This document shows positions 9,527-42,218 of a DNA stretch of 46,098 bases, in pieces (the first letter of the stretch is position 1; each line of letters opens with the position of its first letter). The DNA comes from Candidatus Poribacteria bacterium (GTDB lineage: Bacteria; Poribacteria; WGA-4E; WGA-3G): contig VXPE01000080.1 of NCBI GenBank assembly GCA_009839745.1, positions 1 through 46,098 on the forward strand. The letters are read 5' to 3'. The notes under the pieces were generated by a model. It was not told where the DNA came from, did no database searches, and worked only from the letters and a program-made list of their open reading frames with translations. The translations under genes and the position numbers were made by a program.

Positions 9527-9650
9527 TTTTAATTTTACCTTGCGGAGAAGTAAGTGTCTTCGTCCTTTTACGATTTTCGTGTTCAGGTCGCCCGCGCCGT
9601 TGTTGCGGGCTTGGTTTTCGTTTTTATTTTCTTATTTAATTTTACCTTTT
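9527..9650. repeat. Partial copy of the modular intergenic repeat
   Basis: TTTTAATTTTACCTTGCGG at 9527-9545 is the left-arm motif found at 15850, 21471 and 22836. A GCCCGCGCCGTTGTTGCGGGC hairpin-like module follows (about 9589-9609), then a second AT-rich TTTAATTTTACC at about 9637-9648. It lies in the 247 bp gap between the divergent aminotransferase and argJ genes, just upstream of the argJ promoter. Confidence 0.65.
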
Positions 9651-24132: not shown

Positions 24133-26382
24133 ATGCAACTCAAGCATCTGTTTCTCATCATCACTGCGTTGCTAACGCTGCCACTTACTGCCATCGCCCA
24201 AACAGAACACACCGTATTTAGGCACGGTGGTAGCGTTGAAACGGTTGCATACTCCCCCGTGAATGCTTCTCTGTTTGCGAGTGCGGGGGATAGGGGTGCG
24301 ATTAAGGTATGGAACCTGCACAATGATACCGTGACAACGTTGGGCCGCCATGCGGATACCGTTAACTCCGTCGCCTTCTCCCCAGATGGTAATTTTCTCG
24401 CCAGTGGGGGTGACGATTACGTCCTCAAAGTGTGGAATGTTCACCATAAACACCACATCGCAACCTGTGAGCAGATTACCGACCGGACCCGTTCACAAGT
24501 CAAGGCGGTTACCTTCTCTCCAAACGGCAGCACGATAGCAACTGGCGGTAGACATGCGAAACTCTGGGATGCACGCACCTACAACGAGATCGTTACGTTC
24601 AGGCATACCGACTGGGTCTGGGCGGTTGCGTTTTCCAACGATGGCAGGCTACTCGCCACGGGAGATAATAGCGGCCAGGTGACTGTCTGGGACCTTCAAA
24701 CACAACGGTCTGTTACACGGATCCTTGCTGATTCGAATGCTGTCTATACTGTTCAGTTTTCTCCGGATGCCCAAATCCTTGCGGGTGCGGGATACGAAGG
24801 GAAAGTGAAGTTATGGAAAGCACCGAATTGGATACCGTATGGCACGCTTACCACCAACGGCACAATCTCCAACATGAGTTTCTCACCTGATAGCAGCACA
24901 CTTGCCACCACAGGCTACACATCTGTCAATCTGTGGGGGGTTAACATCGGCGAGAATATGGGCACGCTCACGGGACACACAGATTGGGTCAGGGGTACTG
25001 CCTTTTCTCCGGACGGAAGTTCGCTGATCAGCGGTGGCACGGACACCACGCTCCGACTCTGGGATGTCACGTCCTACCGCTCCACAACGCCAGATATGGT
25101 GCGGATTCTCTATTTCCTCCCGCGCGATCGGAGCCTGCAACCCAACATCTGGACGAAGATGGATACACTCATAAGGCGCGTCCAACGCTTTTATGCAGAC
25201 CAGATGGCCCTTAACGGATTCGGTCGGAAAACCTTCACGTTTGAAACCGATGCAAATGGTCGGATGCTTGCATACCGAGTTGAGGGGCAGTTTAGAGACC
25301 AATATTACCATACGGATACGGCAAATAAGGTCTACGATGAAGTCGCGGCTCTGTTTGACACGGAAAAACACGTTTATCTCATCGTCGCAGACATCAGTAG
25401 TGAGTTCATTGGGGGAAAAGACAAATGCGGGGTTGGTGGCGGCAATTGGTTTGAAAATGAACTCTTGGTCAGGGCTCGAGGGGGGCGCGCGGTGATCCCT
25501 GCCTCGGGGGTGTGTTTCGAGGGGGCGTATGGGGTCGTTGTAACAGCGCACGAACTTGGACACGCGTTCGGCTTAGAGCACGACTTTCGCAATCCGGCGT
25601 ATCTTATGTCCTATGGCGCAGCACCCGACCGATTGTCGAAGTGTGCCGCCAGTTGGCTGAATGCCAATCGCTTTTTTAACACCGATCAAACCGCCTTCAA
25701 CGAACCGACAACGATTCAGATGCTCACGCCTTCACGGTACTCCCGAAACGCGAGAAATTTTACGCTCCAATTTGCCGTCAGTGACGTAGACGGTATCCAC
25801 CAAGCGCAGTTACTGGTGCCGACGACCGTGTTGGACCCAGCGCCCGGTATCAAGTTACACAGCTGTAAGGACTTACACACGCAAAGCAGTCTCCTTGAAT
25901 TCAGCACGCCGACCTTAACGGTACAGCACATCAACAATGTCGTTCTTCAAGTGATTGACATCCGCGGAAATATTACACGGCGGGATTACACACTCAGAGC
26001 CGTGAACGCCTTAGTGTCTGGCAGCGCCGATGTTAACAGAGATGGAATTGCCGCGCCTGAACAACTTCTCGCAACCATAGCGATTCCAACAGAAACCCGT
26101 ATCTTCGCAAACTACCCGAACCCGTTTAACCCAGAGACGTGGATACCCTATCAGTTATCTGAACCTGCGGAAGTGACGTTGCACCTCTCTTGTGTGGATG
26201 GGACACTGGTGCGGACGTTAGCGTTGGGACATCGAGCTGCGGGAACATATCACAGCAAAAGCCGTGCGGCGTATTGGGATGGAAGAAATGAACACGGAGA
26301 ACGCGTGGCGAGCGGTGTCTATTTCTATACACTGTCAGCAGGGGATTTTACAGCGACACGGAAGATGTTCATCAGGAAGTAG
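24133..26382 (+). CDS. Secreted WD40 propeller - metzincin metalloprotease - FlgD-like domain protein
   Basis: 749 residues. The signal peptide is MQLKHLFLIITALLTLPLTAIAQ. Residues about 25-320 hold seven WD40 repeats (for example VNSVAFSPDGNFLASGG..LKVWNV, WAVAFSNDGRLLATG..VTVWDL, RGTAFSPDGSSLISGG..LRLWDV), a complete propeller. A zinc-protease domain follows with HELGHAFGLEHD at residues 473-484 and a Met-turn candidate YLMSYG, a metzincin pattern. After a beta-rich linker the C-terminus is FlgD Ig-like: FANYPNPFNPETWIPYQL, AAYWDGRNEHGERVASGVYFYTL, ATRKMFIRK, a common terminal domain of exported proteins in such genomes. It probably cleaves proteins outside the cell, with the propeller as binding platform. 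Substrate and inhibitor are unknown. Confidence 0.82.
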   Translation: MQLKHLFLIITALLTLPLTAIAQTEHTVFRHGGSVETVAYSPVNASLFASAGDRGAIKVWNLHNDTVTTLGRHADTVNSVAFSPDGNFLASGGDDYVLKVWNVHHKHHIATCEQITDRTRSQVKAVTFSPNGSTIATGGRHAKLWDARTYNEIVTFRHTDWVWAVAFSNDGRLLATGDNSGQVTVWDLQTQRSVTRILADSNAVYTVQFSPDAQILAGAGYEGKVKLWKAPNWIPYGTLTTNGTISNMSFSPDSSTLATTGYTSVNLWGVNIGENMGTLTGHTDWVRGTAFSPDGSSLISGGTDTTLRLWDVTSYRSTTPDMVRILYFLPRDRSLQPNIWTKMDTLIRRVQRFYADQMALNGFGRKTFTFETDANGRMLAYRVEGQFRDQYYHTDTANKVYDEVAALFDTEKHVYLIVADISSEFIGGKDKCGVGGGNWFENELLVRARGGRAVIPASGVCFEGAYGVVVTAHELGHAFGLEHDFRNPAYLMSYGAAPDRLSKCAASWLNANRFFNTDQTAFNEPTTIQMLTPSRYSRNARNFTLQFAVSDVDGIHQAQLLVPTTVLDPAPGIKLHSCKDLHTQSSLLEFSTPTLTVQHINNVVLQVIDIRGNITRRDYTLRAVNALVSGSADVNRDGIAAPEQLLATIAIPTETRIFANYPNPFNPETWIPYQLSEPAEVTLHLSCVDGTLVRTLALGHRAAGTYHSKSRAAYWDGRNEHGERVASGVYFYTLSAGDFTATRKMFIRK

Positions 26383-26392
26383 GCAATTGTGC

Positions 26393-26421
26393 TTGACATC
26401 GTACGCCGAGAGTGTTATACT
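26393..26421 (+). promoter_or_regulatory. Strong sigma70-type promoter ahead of a structured leader/RNA
   Basis: TTGACA (26393-26398), 17 bp spacer, TATACT (26416-26421). It lies only 10 nt after the metzincin stop and about 240 nt before the next start codon, so it drives either a long leader for the SDR gene or a separate small RNA. Confidence 0.75.
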
Positions 26422-26427
26422 TAACCT

Positions 26428-26562
26428 CGTAAAGTCAACCCACTTTCTGAAAGGATGTAGGGCCTTGTAGCGGTGGCTAAAATTAGGATGCGTCGGATTC
26501 AGCGAAGACGTGCGATATTAACGAAGATACGTTAGGTACAAATCCTCAATCCCTGCCGTGAA
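26428..26562 (+). ncRNA. Candidate structured non-coding RNA or 5' leader
   Basis: Hand folding finds nested complementarity. GTAGGG (26457-26462) pairs with CCCTGC (26551-26556), with one G-U. TTG (26465-26467) pairs with CAA (26547-26549), and AGGAT (26485-26489) with ATCCT (26542-26546). The enclosed regions form hairpins TAGC-GGTG-GCTA (26468-26479), CGTC/GACG (26491-26510) and TAACG/CGTTA (26519-26534). There is no credible ORF. It does not match a riboswitch, 6S, SRP, tmRNA or RNase P pattern that I know. A downstream AAATTATGCC/GGCATAATTT hairpin in the repeat at 26577 could end the transcript. Confidence 0.4.
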
Positions 26563-26576
26563 TTAACCGGAAACCC

Positions 26577-26662
26577 GCTCGTAATGAAATTATGCCTCAA
26601 ATGGCATAATTTGTCTTTGCTTTACATTTGGAGAGCGGTCCCAGGGGCCCATAGTTTAAAAA
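26577..26662. repeat. Half copy of the modular repeat (type B arm) before the SDR gene
   Basis: CGCTCGTAATGAAATTATG opens a 10-bp-stem hairpin (AAATTATGCC/GGCATAATTT). The tail TTTGTCTTTGCTTTACATTT follows, then GGAGAGCGGTCCCAGGGGCC and a CATAGTTTAAAAA end immediately before ATG 26663. The end is the inverted form of the left arms at 40299 and 41968 (TTTTTAATTATGGGCCCCTG). The same central module is present at 31722-31790, and inverted at about 38360-38403. Confidence 0.75.
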
Positions 26663-27454
26663 ATGGATCTTGGACTTATAGACAAAATTGCAGTCGTAGG
26701 TGCCTCAAGCAAAGGACTTGGGCGCGCAATTGCACTCGGTTTAGCACACGAGGGAGCGAAGGTCACTATTTGCGCGAGAGACAGAGCTGCTCTGGAAGCA
26801 ACGGCAGATGACATTCGCAATCAGACCGACACCGAAGTTTTAGCGGTACCAACCGATGTCAGTCAACCCGATCAGGTTGAAAATCTCATTCGGACAGCGA
26901 TTGGGCACTTCGGTGGTATCGATATTCTGGTTAACAACGCAGGTGGTCCCAGAGCCGGACGGTTTGATGACTTGGGAGCCCAGGATTATCAAGATGCCGT
27001 CCATTTGAACCTAATGAGCACGATAAACCTTTGCCGCGCCGTTGTTCCGACAATGCGGGCACGTGGTGGGGGACGGATTATCAACCTCACTTCTGTCTCT
27101 GTCAAGCAACCCGTCGATGGACTGATGCTATCCAATATGGCACGGACAGGGGTCATTGGATTCGCAAAAACCCTCGCGACGGAGTTAGCACCCGATAAAA
27201 TCCTTGTTAACAATGTCTGCCCCGGTATCATCTTTACAGATCGCATTCGACAACTGGCGACCGTCCGTGCCGAAGAGGGGGGTATTACATTTGATGAGGC
27301 ACTCGAAAATATGACCGCCGATATCCCGATCGGTAGAATCGGGGACCCAGACGAATTTGCAACCTTAGTCGTTTTTCTTGCATCAGAACGCGCAAGTTAC
27401 ATCACCGGAACGACAATTCAGGTAGACGGCGGCATGGTAAAATCATTACTCTAA
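26663..27454 (+). CDS. Short-chain dehydrogenase/reductase with atypical active site
   Basis: 263 residues. The Rossmann cofactor motif is GASSKGLGRAIA (SDR TGxxxGxG type). ICARDR suggests NADP preference, and NNAGGPRAG, NLTSVSVKQPV and the C-terminal ITGTTIQVDGGM are standard. The usual catalytic YxxxK is absent: after the catalytic Ser the sequence reads DGLMLSNMARTGVIGFAK, with Leu/Ser/Asn and Arg in the expected places. A divergent SDR subgroup with similar replacements exists, so the loss may define a subfamily rather than decay. The substrate is unknown. The start abuts the repeat arm and has no clear Shine-Dalgarno. Confidence 0.85.
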   Translation: MDLGLIDKIAVVGASSKGLGRAIALGLAHEGAKVTICARDRAALEATADDIRNQTDTEVLAVPTDVSQPDQVENLIRTAIGHFGGIDILVNNAGGPRAGRFDDLGAQDYQDAVHLNLMSTINLCRAVVPTMRARGGGRIINLTSVSVKQPVDGLMLSNMARTGVIGFAKTLATELAPDKILVNNVCPGIIFTDRIRQLATVRAEEGGITFDEALENMTADIPIGRIGDPDEFATLVVFLASERASYITGTTIQVDGGMVKSLL

Positions 27455-27481: not shown

Positions 27482-28195
27482 ATGTTAATATCCGTAATCA
27501 TTCCTGCGTTCAACGAAGATCAGACAATCGGACAGGTGCTGGCGGTCCTCTGTGCCCTGCCCCTTGAGAAACAGATTATTGTTGTCAACGACGGCTCCAC
27601 CGACGGAACTTACACGGTACTTGAGGAATTGCGAGCGACTCATGAACTGACCGTCGTGCATTGCCAAGAGAACAGAGGTAAAGGATTCGCAATTCAGAGT
27701 GGACTCCCGCATGTGAAAGGGGAAGTGGTCGTTATTCAAGATGCAGATATGGAATTGGATCCAGCGGATATCCCTGAACTTGTGAAACCGCTTGAAAAGG
27801 AGAACGTTCAAGTAGTTTACGGATCACGGTTTCTGAACGGACGCGGAAACGCCAGTCTCCAGAACTTCATCGCGAACCGTATTCTTGCTACCTATACAAA
27901 TCTCCTTTACGGATGCCGCATTACCGATGAATCGACAGGCTACAAAGCCTTCTCAACAGAATTGATCACACGTTTAGAGTTAACCTGTGAGGGATTTGAA
28001 TTCTGTCCGGAGGTCACAGCGAAGATTTTACGGGCAGGCTATCGTATCCATGAGGTGCCGGTCTCCTATGTTCCGCGCACAAAAAAGCAGGGAAAGAAAC
28101 TCCGATTCTGGTTGGATGGACTTTTTGCCGTATGGACACTCTTAAAATACCGTTTCATTTCAGAAACAGAAATTTTCAAAACATCTGGAGGTTAA
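27482..28195 (+). CDS. Family 2 glycosyltransferase, polyprenol-phosphate mannosyl/glucosyltransferase-like
   Basis: 237 residues: VIIPAFNEDQTIGQVL, nucleotide-binding VVNDGSTDGTY, ENRGKGFAIQSGL, the metal-binding DxD-type QDADMELDP, VYGSRFLNGRGN, DESTGYKAFSTELI and FCPEVTAKILRAGYRIHEVP. This is the DPM1-like GT-A layout without C-terminal membrane helices, so it probably transfers a sugar to a lipid carrier at the inner membrane face. GGAGG lies 11 nt upstream of the chosen ATG. Two earlier ATG codons (27472, 27475) are out of frame. The next gene starts 1 nt after its stop, so the genes are probably coupled. Confidence 0.85.
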   Translation: MLISVIIPAFNEDQTIGQVLAVLCALPLEKQIIVVNDGSTDGTYTVLEELRATHELTVVHCQENRGKGFAIQSGLPHVKGEVVVIQDADMELDPADIPELVKPLEKENVQVVYGSRFLNGRGNASLQNFIANRILATYTNLLYGCRITDESTGYKAFSTELITRLELTCEGFEFCPEVTAKILRAGYRIHEVPVSYVPRTKKQGKKLRFWLDGLFAVWTLLKYRFISETEIFKTSGG

Positions 28196-38709: not shown

Positions 38710-40305
38710 GTGAACCAATTGAAAAAGAAAACGATTTCGAGAAGTCGAGGGGTGCGTTCAGCACCGAGTTTGAAAAGCGAGAGGGTTTCCAAAAAAGCAA
38801 GGTCCAAGATAAACGCTGCGGAAACCCTGAAGCGAGACAAAAACGGACTTGAGGTCATTAATGACATTCCCAACTACATTCGGGAGGGTTGGGAATCTAT
38901 TCCCCCGAACGAACGGGATCGGCTTAAGTGGGTAGGTGTCTTTTTCCGAAAGCAAACCCCCGGCGAATTCATGATGCGTCTCCGTATGTCAAGTGGTTTC
39001 AGCAATTCCGATCAACTTCGCGCTATTGCTGAAATCAGTGAAGCACACGGACCCGGGTTTGTCGATCTCACGACGCGCCAGCAGATCCAACTTCGAGGTT
39101 TCACGATCAAGAATGTCCAACATATCTGGAATCGGCTTGAAGAGGTCGGTTTAGGTTCACTCCAAACGGGTTTCGATAATATTCGCGGTGTCATCGGATG
39201 TCCCGTTGCGGGATTGACACCGAACGAACTCTTTGATGCATCGCAGGTCGGCAGGGAATTCACAAAACTCTTTGTCGGGAATAAGGAATTCACCGATATT
39301 CCGCGGAAGTTTAACGTCGGTATCACAGGCTGCTTGGATAACTGCACGCATACCGCCTCACAGGATATCGCCCTCACACCCGCGGTCAAAGAGATTGACG
39401 GTGAAAAAACAAACGGCTTTAATGTCGCAGTCGGTGGAAAGATGGGCTCCGGTGGCTACACGCCAGCGCAACCCCTTGACGTGTTTATTACGCCGAAAGA
39501 AGCCTCAGTTTTGTGTGCGGATATTACGTTAATTTTTCGAGAGCACGGACCTCGGATAGCTCGCAATAAATCCCGCCTTGCTTTTCTGATTGCAGATTGG
39601 GGGGCAGGAAAATTCCGAGAAGAATTAGAAAGACGTCGGCACAGAAAGCAGCCGCTCCTGACTGCGGGGAAAGACGCACGCGGTAAGAAAAAGACGGATC
39701 ACACCGGTATCTTCTCACAGAAACAGCCGGGGCTCAACTACGTCGGGCTTGTTGTCCCAGTCGGACGGATTACAACAACGCCCCTTTTTGAGGTCGCACG
39801 GATCGCAGATAAATACGGCAACGGCAACATCCGTCTCACACAAGGACAGAATTTAATTATCACCAACGTGCCAGATGCAAAAATCGGAGACCTCACCGCA
39901 GAACCGCTCCTACAAGAACTCCGCTATGATCCTTCGGAAGTCATGCGCGGCATGGTAAGTTGCACAGGCATTGACTACTGCCACTTCTCGCTGATTGAAA
40001 CCAAAGAACGCGCCATGGAAGCGATCCGGCATCTGGAGGCGAAACTCGGCAATACGAAACCGCTTACGATACATTGGTCAGGATGTCCAAACGGATGCGG
40101 CAACCACGCCGCTGCAGACATCGGACTCCTCGGTAAGAAAACCAAAATTGACGGGGTCGTCACGGATGCAGTGGACGTATTTCTTAAAGGAGATGCCGGG
40201 GCGAATCCGAAAATCGCGCCGAAGTTATTAGAAAACGTGCCTTGCGATGAACTACCGCAAGTGCTTGAGGGACTCATTCCTTACCTTTCACGTAGATCTT
40301 TTTAA
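38710..40305 (+). CDS. nirA: Ferredoxin-dependent assimilatory nitrite reductase
   Basis: 531 residues, a sirohaem and [4Fe-4S] enzyme of the nitrite/sulfite reductase superfamily that reduces nitrite to ammonium in six electrons. Both halves of the duplicated fold are present: FFRKQTPGEFMMRLRMSSG and DLTTRQQIQLRGFTI early, and VGRITTTPLFEVARIADKYG with IRLTQGQNLIITNV later. The cluster/sirohaem cysteines are in SCTGIDYCHFSLIETK and HWSGCPNGCGNH. The N-terminal 45 residues are Lys/Arg/Ser-rich and unusual. The GTG start at 38710 has GAAGGAG 9 nt upstream. The terminal Phe-TAA falls in the repeat at 40299. nirA leads the nitrate assimilation cluster. Confidence 0.93.
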   Translation: MNQLKKKTISRSRGVRSAPSLKSERVSKKARSKINAAETLKRDKNGLEVINDIPNYIREGWESIPPNERDRLKWVGVFFRKQTPGEFMMRLRMSSGFSNSDQLRAIAEISEAHGPGFVDLTTRQQIQLRGFTIKNVQHIWNRLEEVGLGSLQTGFDNIRGVIGCPVAGLTPNELFDASQVGREFTKLFVGNKEFTDIPRKFNVGITGCLDNCTHTASQDIALTPAVKEIDGEKTNGFNVAVGGKMGSGGYTPAQPLDVFITPKEASVLCADITLIFREHGPRIARNKSRLAFLIADWGAGKFREELERRRHRKQPLLTAGKDARGKKKTDHTGIFSQKQPGLNYVGLVVPVGRITTTPLFEVARIADKYGNGNIRLTQGQNLIITNVPDAKIGDLTAEPLLQELRYDPSEVMRGMVSCTGIDYCHFSLIETKERAMEAIRHLEAKLGNTKPLTIHWSGCPNGCGNHAAADIGLLGKKTKIDGVVTDAVDVFLKGDAGANPKIAPKLLENVPCDELPQVLEGLIPYLSRRSF

Positions 40306-40630
40306 TTATGGGCCCCTGGGCTGCGCTCCATTACATTACGCGCAGGTTTTTGACAAGTTTCGACTATATTTGTGAATTTTGATATTTCTTTTCTCAAACC
40401 AAAATTGTAGCCTGCAACAATACGCAGAAATACACAGAAATACCCAAGCAAAGCCCCCTGCTGAATGCCACACGCGCAAATGTAATACAAGGAACGGATG
40501 TCGTCTATTCCCAGACGACATCCAGCGTTGATTCGCAAAAACATGCAGGCGGATATACGGAAAGGAGATAGAAACCTCCAATCCACCTGACCGAACCGCA
40601 AGGAAAATTTAAAAAAGGAAAATTTAAAAA
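40299..40630. repeat. Modular intergenic repeat with mixed arms (type B left, type A right)
   Basis: Left arm TTTTTAATTATGGGCCCCTG supplies the nirA stop and is followed by a CTGCGCTCCATTACATTACG hairpin. Further in are TAGCCTGCAACAATACGCAG (40410-40429) and GCAGGCGGATATACGGAAAG. The type A right arm ACCGAACCGCAAGGAAAATT (40590 on) ends in a duplicated AAGGAAAATTTAAAAA unit directly before the ATG at 40631. The element fills the 325 bp gap. Confidence 0.8.
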
Positions 40631-41974
40631 ATGGACATAAAAAACAAAGCAACACAGATAAAACTTTTCAGTTTAAAAACCGTTCAGATGCGCACGTTCC
40701 ATACAACATGGTTTGCATTCTTTCTCGCCTTTTTTGGGTGGTTTGGCATTGCACCGCTAATGGCGATTGTGCGTGAAGACCTGATGCTAACAAAAGCAGA
40801 AATTGGGAACACGATTATCGCCTCCGTTGCAATCACAGTTATCGTGCGAATCTTAATCGGACCGCTGTGCGACCGGATCGGCTCTCGAAAGGCATACACG
40901 TGGCTGTTGATCCTCGGCTCACTGCCGGTCATGGGTATCGGTCTCGCTCAGAGCTACGAAACGTTTCTGCTATTCCGCTTGGCGATCGGTGCCATCGGTG
41001 CTGCGTTCGTCATCACACAGTATCATACATCAACGATGTTCGCCCCGAACTGTGTCGGGACAGCGAATGCGACAACGGCAGGCTGGGGGAACCTCGGCGG
41101 CGGTGTTACGCAGATGGTGATGCCTCTCATCTTTACCGCCGTGCTCAGTGTCGGTGTGGACAAATTCCTCGGATGGCGGTTGGCAATGATTATTCCTGGG
41201 ATCGCTCTGTTTATCACGGGTTTCGCGTATTACTTTCTTACCCAAGACGCACCCGATGGAAACTATAAAGAGCTCCGTGACCGAGGTGACCTCGAACCCG
41301 CAAAAGGCAAGGGCATGGAGTCTTTCATGCTGGCGATTAAAGACTATCGCGTCTGGGCACTCTTTGTCATTTACGCTGCCTGTTTCGGGATAGAACTCAC
41401 CATCAACAACGTCGCTGCCCTCTATTATCACGACCAGTTCCAGTTAGATGTCAAAACTGCTGGACTCATCGCGGGGTTGTTCGGTCTGATGAACATCTTT
41501 GCGCGGACAGTCGGTGGTGCTTTTTCCGATTTCTTTGCGAAAAAGATGGGACTTCGCGGACGCGTCATGTTCCTCTTCGTTGTCCTGTTAGGCGAAGGGA
41601 TCATGCTGATGGTGTTCTCGCAGATGGCAGTCCTTGTGCTCGCTGTCGGAGCGATGATTGTTTTCAGTCTCTTTGTGCAGATGTCCGAGGGGGCAACATA
41701 CGGAATCGTTCCCTTCATCAATCGAAAGGCGTTAGGAGCGGTTGCCGGTATTGTGGGTGCGGGTGGAAACGCTGGCGCAGTCGCCGCGGGTTTCCTGTTC
41801 CGTTCTGAGAGCATCACGATGCAGCAAGGTTTGTTATATCTCGGCATAACGGTCGCAGTCGCCTCCGTTGCGACAGCGTTGGTGAGATTCTCACCCGCAG
41901 TCCAAAACGCGGAGAAGAAAGCATTTGATGCCGCACTTGCTGAGAGACAACGCCTGAAAGCGGAAGCTTTTTAA
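40631..41974 (+). CDS. Nitrate/nitrite transporter, MFS NNP family
   Basis: 447 residues, 12 predicted transmembrane helices. NNP-family signatures are visible: AFFGWFGIAPLMAIVREDL in the first helix, RILIGPLCDRIGSRKAY (MFS loop 2-3), the nitrate signature AGWGNLGGGVTQ and its second copy GIVGAGGNAGAVAAGFLF. It imports nitrate (possibly nitrite) across the inner membrane. It sits between nirA and nasA, as in many assimilation operons. AAGGA is 11 nt upstream of the ATG, inside the repeat arm; the Phe-TAA end is in the next repeat. Confidence 0.93.
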   Translation: MDIKNKATQIKLFSLKTVQMRTFHTTWFAFFLAFFGWFGIAPLMAIVREDLMLTKAEIGNTIIASVAITVIVRILIGPLCDRIGSRKAYTWLLILGSLPVMGIGLAQSYETFLLFRLAIGAIGAAFVITQYHTSTMFAPNCVGTANATTAGWGNLGGGVTQMVMPLIFTAVLSVGVDKFLGWRLAMIIPGIALFITGFAYYFLTQDAPDGNYKELRDRGDLEPAKGKGMESFMLAIKDYRVWALFVIYAACFGIELTINNVAALYYHDQFQLDVKTAGLIAGLFGLMNIFARTVGGAFSDFFAKKMGLRGRVMFLFVVLLGEGIMLMVFSQMAVLVLAVGAMIVFSLFVQMSEGATYGIVPFINRKALGAVAGIVGAGGNAGAVAAGFLFRSESITMQQGLLYLGITVAVASVATALVRFSPAVQNAEKKAFDAALAERQRLKAEAF

Positions 41975-42218
41975 TTTATGGGTCCCTGGGCCGCTCTCCA
42001 CTTCGTTGCGAGCGGGTTTTTGTTAAAATTCATGCTCGTCTCTAAAAAGGAATACAGGATACACTGAAAACCTGCCTGTAATGAAATGGAAAGCAGGGTA
42101 GAAACTTAATAATTGGAAAAACGAAACTGTAGCCTGCAACAACGGCGCAGGCAACTCTACGGAGAGGCACTTCATGTATCAAACCCACCTCACCGAACCG
42201 CAAGGAAAAATTAAAACA
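41968..42218. repeat. Modular intergenic repeat (type B left, type A right) before nasA
   Basis: Left arm TTTTTAATTTATGGGTCCCT supplies the transporter stop. It is followed by a CGCTCTCCACTTCGTTGCGAG hairpin, CCTGTAATGAAATGGAAAGCAGG (about 42070-42092), TAGCCTGCAACAACGGCGCAGG (42131-42152), and the right arm CACCTCACCGAACCGCAAGG then AAAAATTAAAAC. The last part is translated as residues 4-15 of the nitrate reductase frame. Confidence 0.8.

Follow-up and report, generated by a model that had tools for sequence, protein, structure and literature searches.

A probable composite operon leader and a genus-wide hairpin element next to predicted start codons in Poribacteria

The segment that follows a strong promoter in this DNA, which comes from a sponge-associated, uncultured Poribacterium, is most likely an ordinary leader of an operon, in which stems can be drawn by chance, and the repeat beside it, here called R2, is the better finding. 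R2 is a previously undescribed hairpin element, present throughout one genus; in each genome it abuts predicted start codons, at up to a hundred genes or more. All positions refer to the window, the whole stretch of 46,098 nucleotides that was analysed.

Results

A probable composite leader of the SDR-glycosyltransferase operon

The region comprises the following features:

26393 to 26421, + strand: sigma-70-type promoter with an extended -10 (TTGACA-17-TATACT, TG at 26413-26414)
26439 to 26463, + strand: conserved leader block ..TTTCTGAAAGGATGTAGGGC, from comparison of relatives
26457 to 26537, + strand: R3, a leader block of low copy number (GTAGGGC..TTGTGGCGGTGGCTAAAATTAGGATGCGTCGGATTCAG..) that in relatives also precedes trpE and an ECF sigma gene
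26538 to 26662, + strand: R2, a dispersed element with an approximate 5' limit that runs up to the SDR ATG (model match 26561-26667, E 6.8e-9)
26663 to 27454, + strand: SDR-family oxidoreductase, first gene of the operon (Pfam adh_short_C2, E 3e-59)
27482 to 28195, + strand: family 2 glycosyltransferase, second gene of the operon (Pfam Glycos_transf_2, E 6e-32)

An earlier note on this DNA had placed a near-consensus promoter 10 nt after the stop of a metzincin gene (ORF 24133-26382), and this was borne out: the promoter matches 11 of 12 consensus positions, and a search of 60 relatives recovered it from ~30 species of one Poribacteria genus, where it precedes the orthologous SDR gene along with the initial ~40 nt of the leader. 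Synteny and promoter conservation across these species likewise support the proposal that the segment is a leader of the SDR-glycosyltransferase genes. The promoter lies about 240 nt from the SDR gene, with transcription predicted to start near 26428. The protein predicted from the upstream ORF joins many N-terminal WD40 repeats to a part that bears the metzincin-like motif HELGHAFGLEH, and has a C-terminal sorting-like domain of the YPNPFNPETWIPYQL type.

From these comparisons, 26428-26662 is probably a composite 5' untranslated leader of the operon, made up of a promoter-proximal block, R3 and R2. RNA polymerase would start near 26428 and produce one transcript that runs through the leader into the SDR and glycosyltransferase genes.

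About half of the relatives have instead a short leader of 50-60 nt (~95 nt separate the -35 and the ATG), which consists of GAAAGG and a small GGGC/GCCC hairpin just before the ATG (..TGATTCTGTTTTTGAAAGGATGTAGGGC-loop-GCCCACATTGAAACGT-ATG); the window carries a Shine-Dalgarno-like GAAAGGA at 26449-26455. Across 18 such sequences the GGG/CCC arms are invariant while the loop ranges from about 5 to 21 nt, and covariation in the small stem is marginal. Since half of the relatives do without the segment and have this short leader, the segment most likely belongs to the SDR-glycosyltransferase leader and not to an independent small RNA. Long leaders come in three types that are scattered over the SDR gene tree and do not follow it, which argues for repeated gains, losses or exchanges; on this tree, species with short leaders alternate with those that have long ones, and clean empty sites were not found. 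R2 takes the place of the 3' part of the leader rather than splitting it, and would replace the Shine-Dalgarno-hairpin-AUG start region of the short-leader relatives. Against this composite leader, half of the orthologues manage without R2, which is therefore dispensable at the SDR locus, and the R2 copy in the leader has its loop interrupted by a 39-nt insert. An upstream ORF at GGATGTAG was considered and rejected, as it is lost in several species.

In phage T4 gene 38 a hairpin bridges the distance from the Shine-Dalgarno sequence to the AUG. The short-leader relatives resemble this arrangement, with GAAAGG, a hairpin and an AUG ~30 nt later, although their hairpin is a prediction with marginal stem covariation.

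The stems drawn in the segment would pair across two modules

The earlier note had described the segment as a candidate new structured RNA with nested stems, possibly acting as a small RNA. The stems can pair in sequence: 26457-26467 is able to form nine pairs with 26547-26556, with one internal loop, and 26485-26489 can pair with 26542-26546. As structure, they were not confirmed. The minimum free energy of 26428-26565 was -26.6 as compared to a shuffle mean of -31.4 (z +1.41), 187 of 200 shuffles were equally or more stable, and the predicted ensemble was diffuse. The whole segment is kept in only three other species (G008, G023 and G011). When aligned with these sisters, no pair of the named stems showed a both-sided, compensatory change, so that the covariation check proposed for the stems gave a negative answer. 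The A26459-T26554 pair of the outer stem is lost in all three sisters, inner pairs are also lost in some, and the closing G-C of the hairpin 26519-26523/26530-26534 is gone in all three; the sub-hairpin 26490-26494/26507-26511 is weakly supported (80% paired). Conserved secondary structure in the named stems is thus missing.

The 5' arms of these stems fall within R3; the 3' arms, at 26542-26556, are either inside R2 or at its 5' edge. Because the arms belong to different blocks, the pairing crosses a module boundary, and a new structured RNA built on these stems is not supported. As part of the composite-leader explanation, the stems are probably chance pairing across two modules. The statement that the segment matches no recognisable RNA family held: a covariance-model search of Rfam 15 at the gathering threshold, and then at E up to 10, returned no match. 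A conserved hairpin element does adjoin the segment (26575-26638), in what had been termed only "the adjacent repeat".

An independent structured small RNA extending from 26428 to about 26615, and ended by a hairpin at 26587-26612, deserves very little credence. Its promoter is its own, strong and isolated, and the hairpin proposed as terminator exists and has some T downstream, but the sequence right after it (GTCTTTGCTT) is a poor T-tract and the hairpin belongs to a repeat insert that G023 and G011 lack, leaving no credible terminator before the next gene. The same hairpin precedes the start codons of other genes, where termination would switch those genes off. In short-leader relatives, moreover, the same promoter leads straight into the SDR gene. 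A fold no better than that of shuffles and stems broken in the sisters count against the small RNA as well.

R3 is a low-copy block shared with other leaders

A Pfam scan of the genes downstream of R3 identified trpE and an ECF sigma gene. The block includes CTAAAATTANNANGCNTCGGATTCAG, which is conserved at three kinds of gene, and this conservation, along with the weakly supported hairpin 26490-26511, would fit a cis-regulatory leader (a riboswitch or attenuator) centred on R3 at 26457-26537. We consider such a regulator improbable: R3 is low in copy, occurs in no more than half of the SDR leaders, shows little covariation, has no evident ligand common to the three genes, and is crossed by reading frames that are not conserved. 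A small ORF through R3 (MAKIRMRRIQRRR..) is open in several species; it is frameshifted in G010 and has no start codon in G008, and was rejected. In four trpE leaders (L094, L095, L100 and L101) and an ECF sigma leader (L093), the R3 block is joined to the tail of R1, a sister repeat of R2.

R2 is a hairpin with a covarying stem and a conserved tail

The R2 copy of the window contains the following parts:

26575 to 26638, + strand: R2 hairpin, stem CCGCTC (26575-26580) / GAGCGG (26633-26638), loop GTAATGAAA/TGGA split by an insert
26590 to 26628, + strand: 39-nt insert in the loop, bearing the AAATTATGCC/GGCATAATTT hairpin that had been proposed as terminator; the G023 and G011 leaders lack it
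26639 to 26662, + strand: R2 tail TCCCAGGGGCCCATAGTTTAAAAA, directly 5' of the ATG, from sequence comparison

R2 is a 6-bp hairpin, variable in stem sequence and almost strictly Watson-Crick, followed by a conserved tail; its plan is AATTAACCGAAAAC - N6 - GNAA(C/T)G(A/T)A(G/A)TGGA - N6' - (N)CCAGNNNNCCATAGTTAAAAAA - ATG. In 28 copies, gathered in a set for which arm pairing was not required, 99.6% of stem cells are paired and 58 are doubly changed, values that were not attained in any of 500 shuffles. In 47 model-aligned copies from other species, the corresponding figures are 99.7% and 91. Over the two sets, 74-76% of cells were paired among shuffled stem pairings (76% beside the 99.7%). An Rfam search of R2 gave no match, and an outer helix between the CCAGGAG tail and upstream sequence was rejected as no better than shuffled pairings.

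One-sided changes are nearly absent from the stem (0 of 224 cells in one set, 5 of 367 in the other), as are G-U pairs. RNA helices normally pass through G-U states. The near-absence of G-U therefore points, at least in part, to upkeep of the palindrome at the DNA level, for example by arm-to-arm template-switch copying or as a transposition substrate, and not to RNA selection alone. For the same reason, the strong covariation of R2 does not by itself establish a functional RNA.

The 39-nt insert also precedes the start codons of other genes in the genome. With the sequence TTATGCC..GGCATAATTTGTCTTTGCTTTACAT, it occupies the same loop point in many R1 and R2 hairpins, including L002-L020, and is thus an element within an element.

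R2 is restricted to one genus and often ends at predicted start codons

BLAST found ~40 occurrences of the R2 region in the source genome. A covariance model gave 2 to at least 106 matches per genome, among the best 107 candidates, in all 29 scored genomes of the genus, and 0 matches in 19 genomes of other genera. In 34 of 40 high-scoring loci picked from other species, R2 runs exactly up to the start codon of an ORF of at least 80 aa (starts taken from a crude ORF caller), and in three more the start codon lies slightly downstream; the association is somewhat inflated by a seed alignment gathered partly with an ATG-ending pattern and by ATG columns in the model. In 0.85 Mb sampled regardless of elements, with the same crude starts, 6 of the 10 best matches end at a start codon and one ends 9 nt before. 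R2 thus keeps a fixed distance to the start codon in those 34 loci, as a translation-start element would.

Judging by their N-terminal sequences, the genes downstream of R2 appear to be housekeeping genes unrelated to one another, with candidates such as dihydrodipicolinate reductase, lumazine synthase, UvrA and prolyl-tRNA synthetase. At three genes (MKIATIEQF.., MKTKQLL.. and FDKIVPRSEDY..), R2 is kept across species with a different, fully paired stem.

Discussion

Possible roles of R2 and R1

R1 has the same type of hairpin as R2 with a different tail (..CCGCAAGGNANAATTAAAAA). This tail has 243 exact matches in the source genome as compared to 0 for the reversed control, and is expanded in only one clade of the genus (68-265 copies, few elsewhere). 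A sense start codon lies within 45 nt of the R1 tail in 34 of 55 cases, as against 16% of random intergenic points. The end of R1 reads GG[TA]A[TA]AAT-TAAAAA-ATG, in which a hexamer resembling a -10 stands 6 nt ahead of the ATG.

In the composite-leader explanation, the ribosome would load at the R2 tail, where the order is hairpin, CCAG-purine stretch, A-rich spacer and AUG. The element may spread or be homogenised as a DNA palindrome, and would persist where its tail provides a working start site. Tentatively, R2 and R1 could together form a portable start-site module whose stem stays almost strictly Watson-Crick as its sequence drifts gene by gene. Such a module might, with the same reserve, set the starts of translation (or of leaderless transcription) in each genome at a hundred or more genes that are unrelated to one another.

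We hold it just as possible that both repeats are purely selfish palindromes of the REP or MITE kind, without gain to the host, and we give the same weight to the corollary that what places them at start codons is either the choice of target or their removal from other sites. R1 and R2 are dispersed, modular, non-coding and lineage-restricted, as BOX or MITE-like repeats are; their confinement to the genus, the clade-specific expansion of the R1 tail, the nested insertions and the rarity of G-U pairs, expected where arms are copied at the DNA level rather than selected as RNA, all fit selfish repeats. Less easily reconciled with them are the repeated, exact abutment of the ATG in sense orientation, the several species that retain R2 at the same gene with changed yet paired stems, and the four inspected Y1 transposase genes without a nearby palindrome.

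The -10-like hexamer of R1 could also mean that the tails of both repeats are -10 promoter elements for leaderless mRNAs that start at the AUG. This is unlikely, as a -35 is missing, R2 offers no more than CATAGT or CATAAT, less strictly placed, and the SDR gene already has a strong promoter ~240 nt upstream.

Relation to known repeats

REP and BIME palindromes, which are associated with RAYT transposases, are short, high-copy and intergenic. R1 and R2 share with them the high-copy intergenic palindrome, and R1 hairpins often start with GTAG; unlike REP and BIME, their stems vary freely with compensation, and R2 stays at start codons. Of seven Y1_Tnp matches in the genome, four were inspected as possible cognate transposases, and their ~1.5 kb flanks held no hairpin of the R1 or R2 type; a Y1 transposase as the carrier was rejected on the basis of these four genes.

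BOX elements of Streptococcus pneumoniae are described as short, modular, intergenic palindromic repeats that are predicted to fold if transcribed; in the parts of that account drawn on here, they are reported within 5' leaders of operons, the trp operon included, and are judged probably parasitic (PMC3049150). They thus resemble R2 as short modular palindromic intergenic repeats within 5' leaders. R2 differs in having one hairpin with a variable stem; there is no evident sequence relation, and exact abutment of a start codon does not figure in those parts of the BOX account (PMC3049150). Open-access literature on Poribacteria yielded no description of repeats of the R1 or R2 type, and that on repeats at start codons in general yielded pneumococcal work alone or nothing relevant.

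If R2 works as a start module, one mobile sequence would have rewired the start regions of ~100 genes in a single genus, a natural experiment on the spread of promoters or ribosome sites. If it is selfish, survival of the repeat would hinge on an exact fit to start codons. Either way, a strongly covarying stem with almost no G-U could help to tell palindrome correction at the DNA level apart from selection on RNA; covariation tests for new RNAs depend on that distinction.

Other copies in the window

Further copies of the R2 type lie at 40293-40359 (-), 41963-42029 (-) and 42058-42125 (+). The first two have perfect six-base-pair stems, and none of the three has a clear start codon at its end. 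The R1 tail CGCAAGGNNNNATTNAAA occurs seven times in the window, at 9544 (-), 15868 (-), 16153 (+), 20490 (+), 21489 (-), 22854 (-) and 42198 (+).
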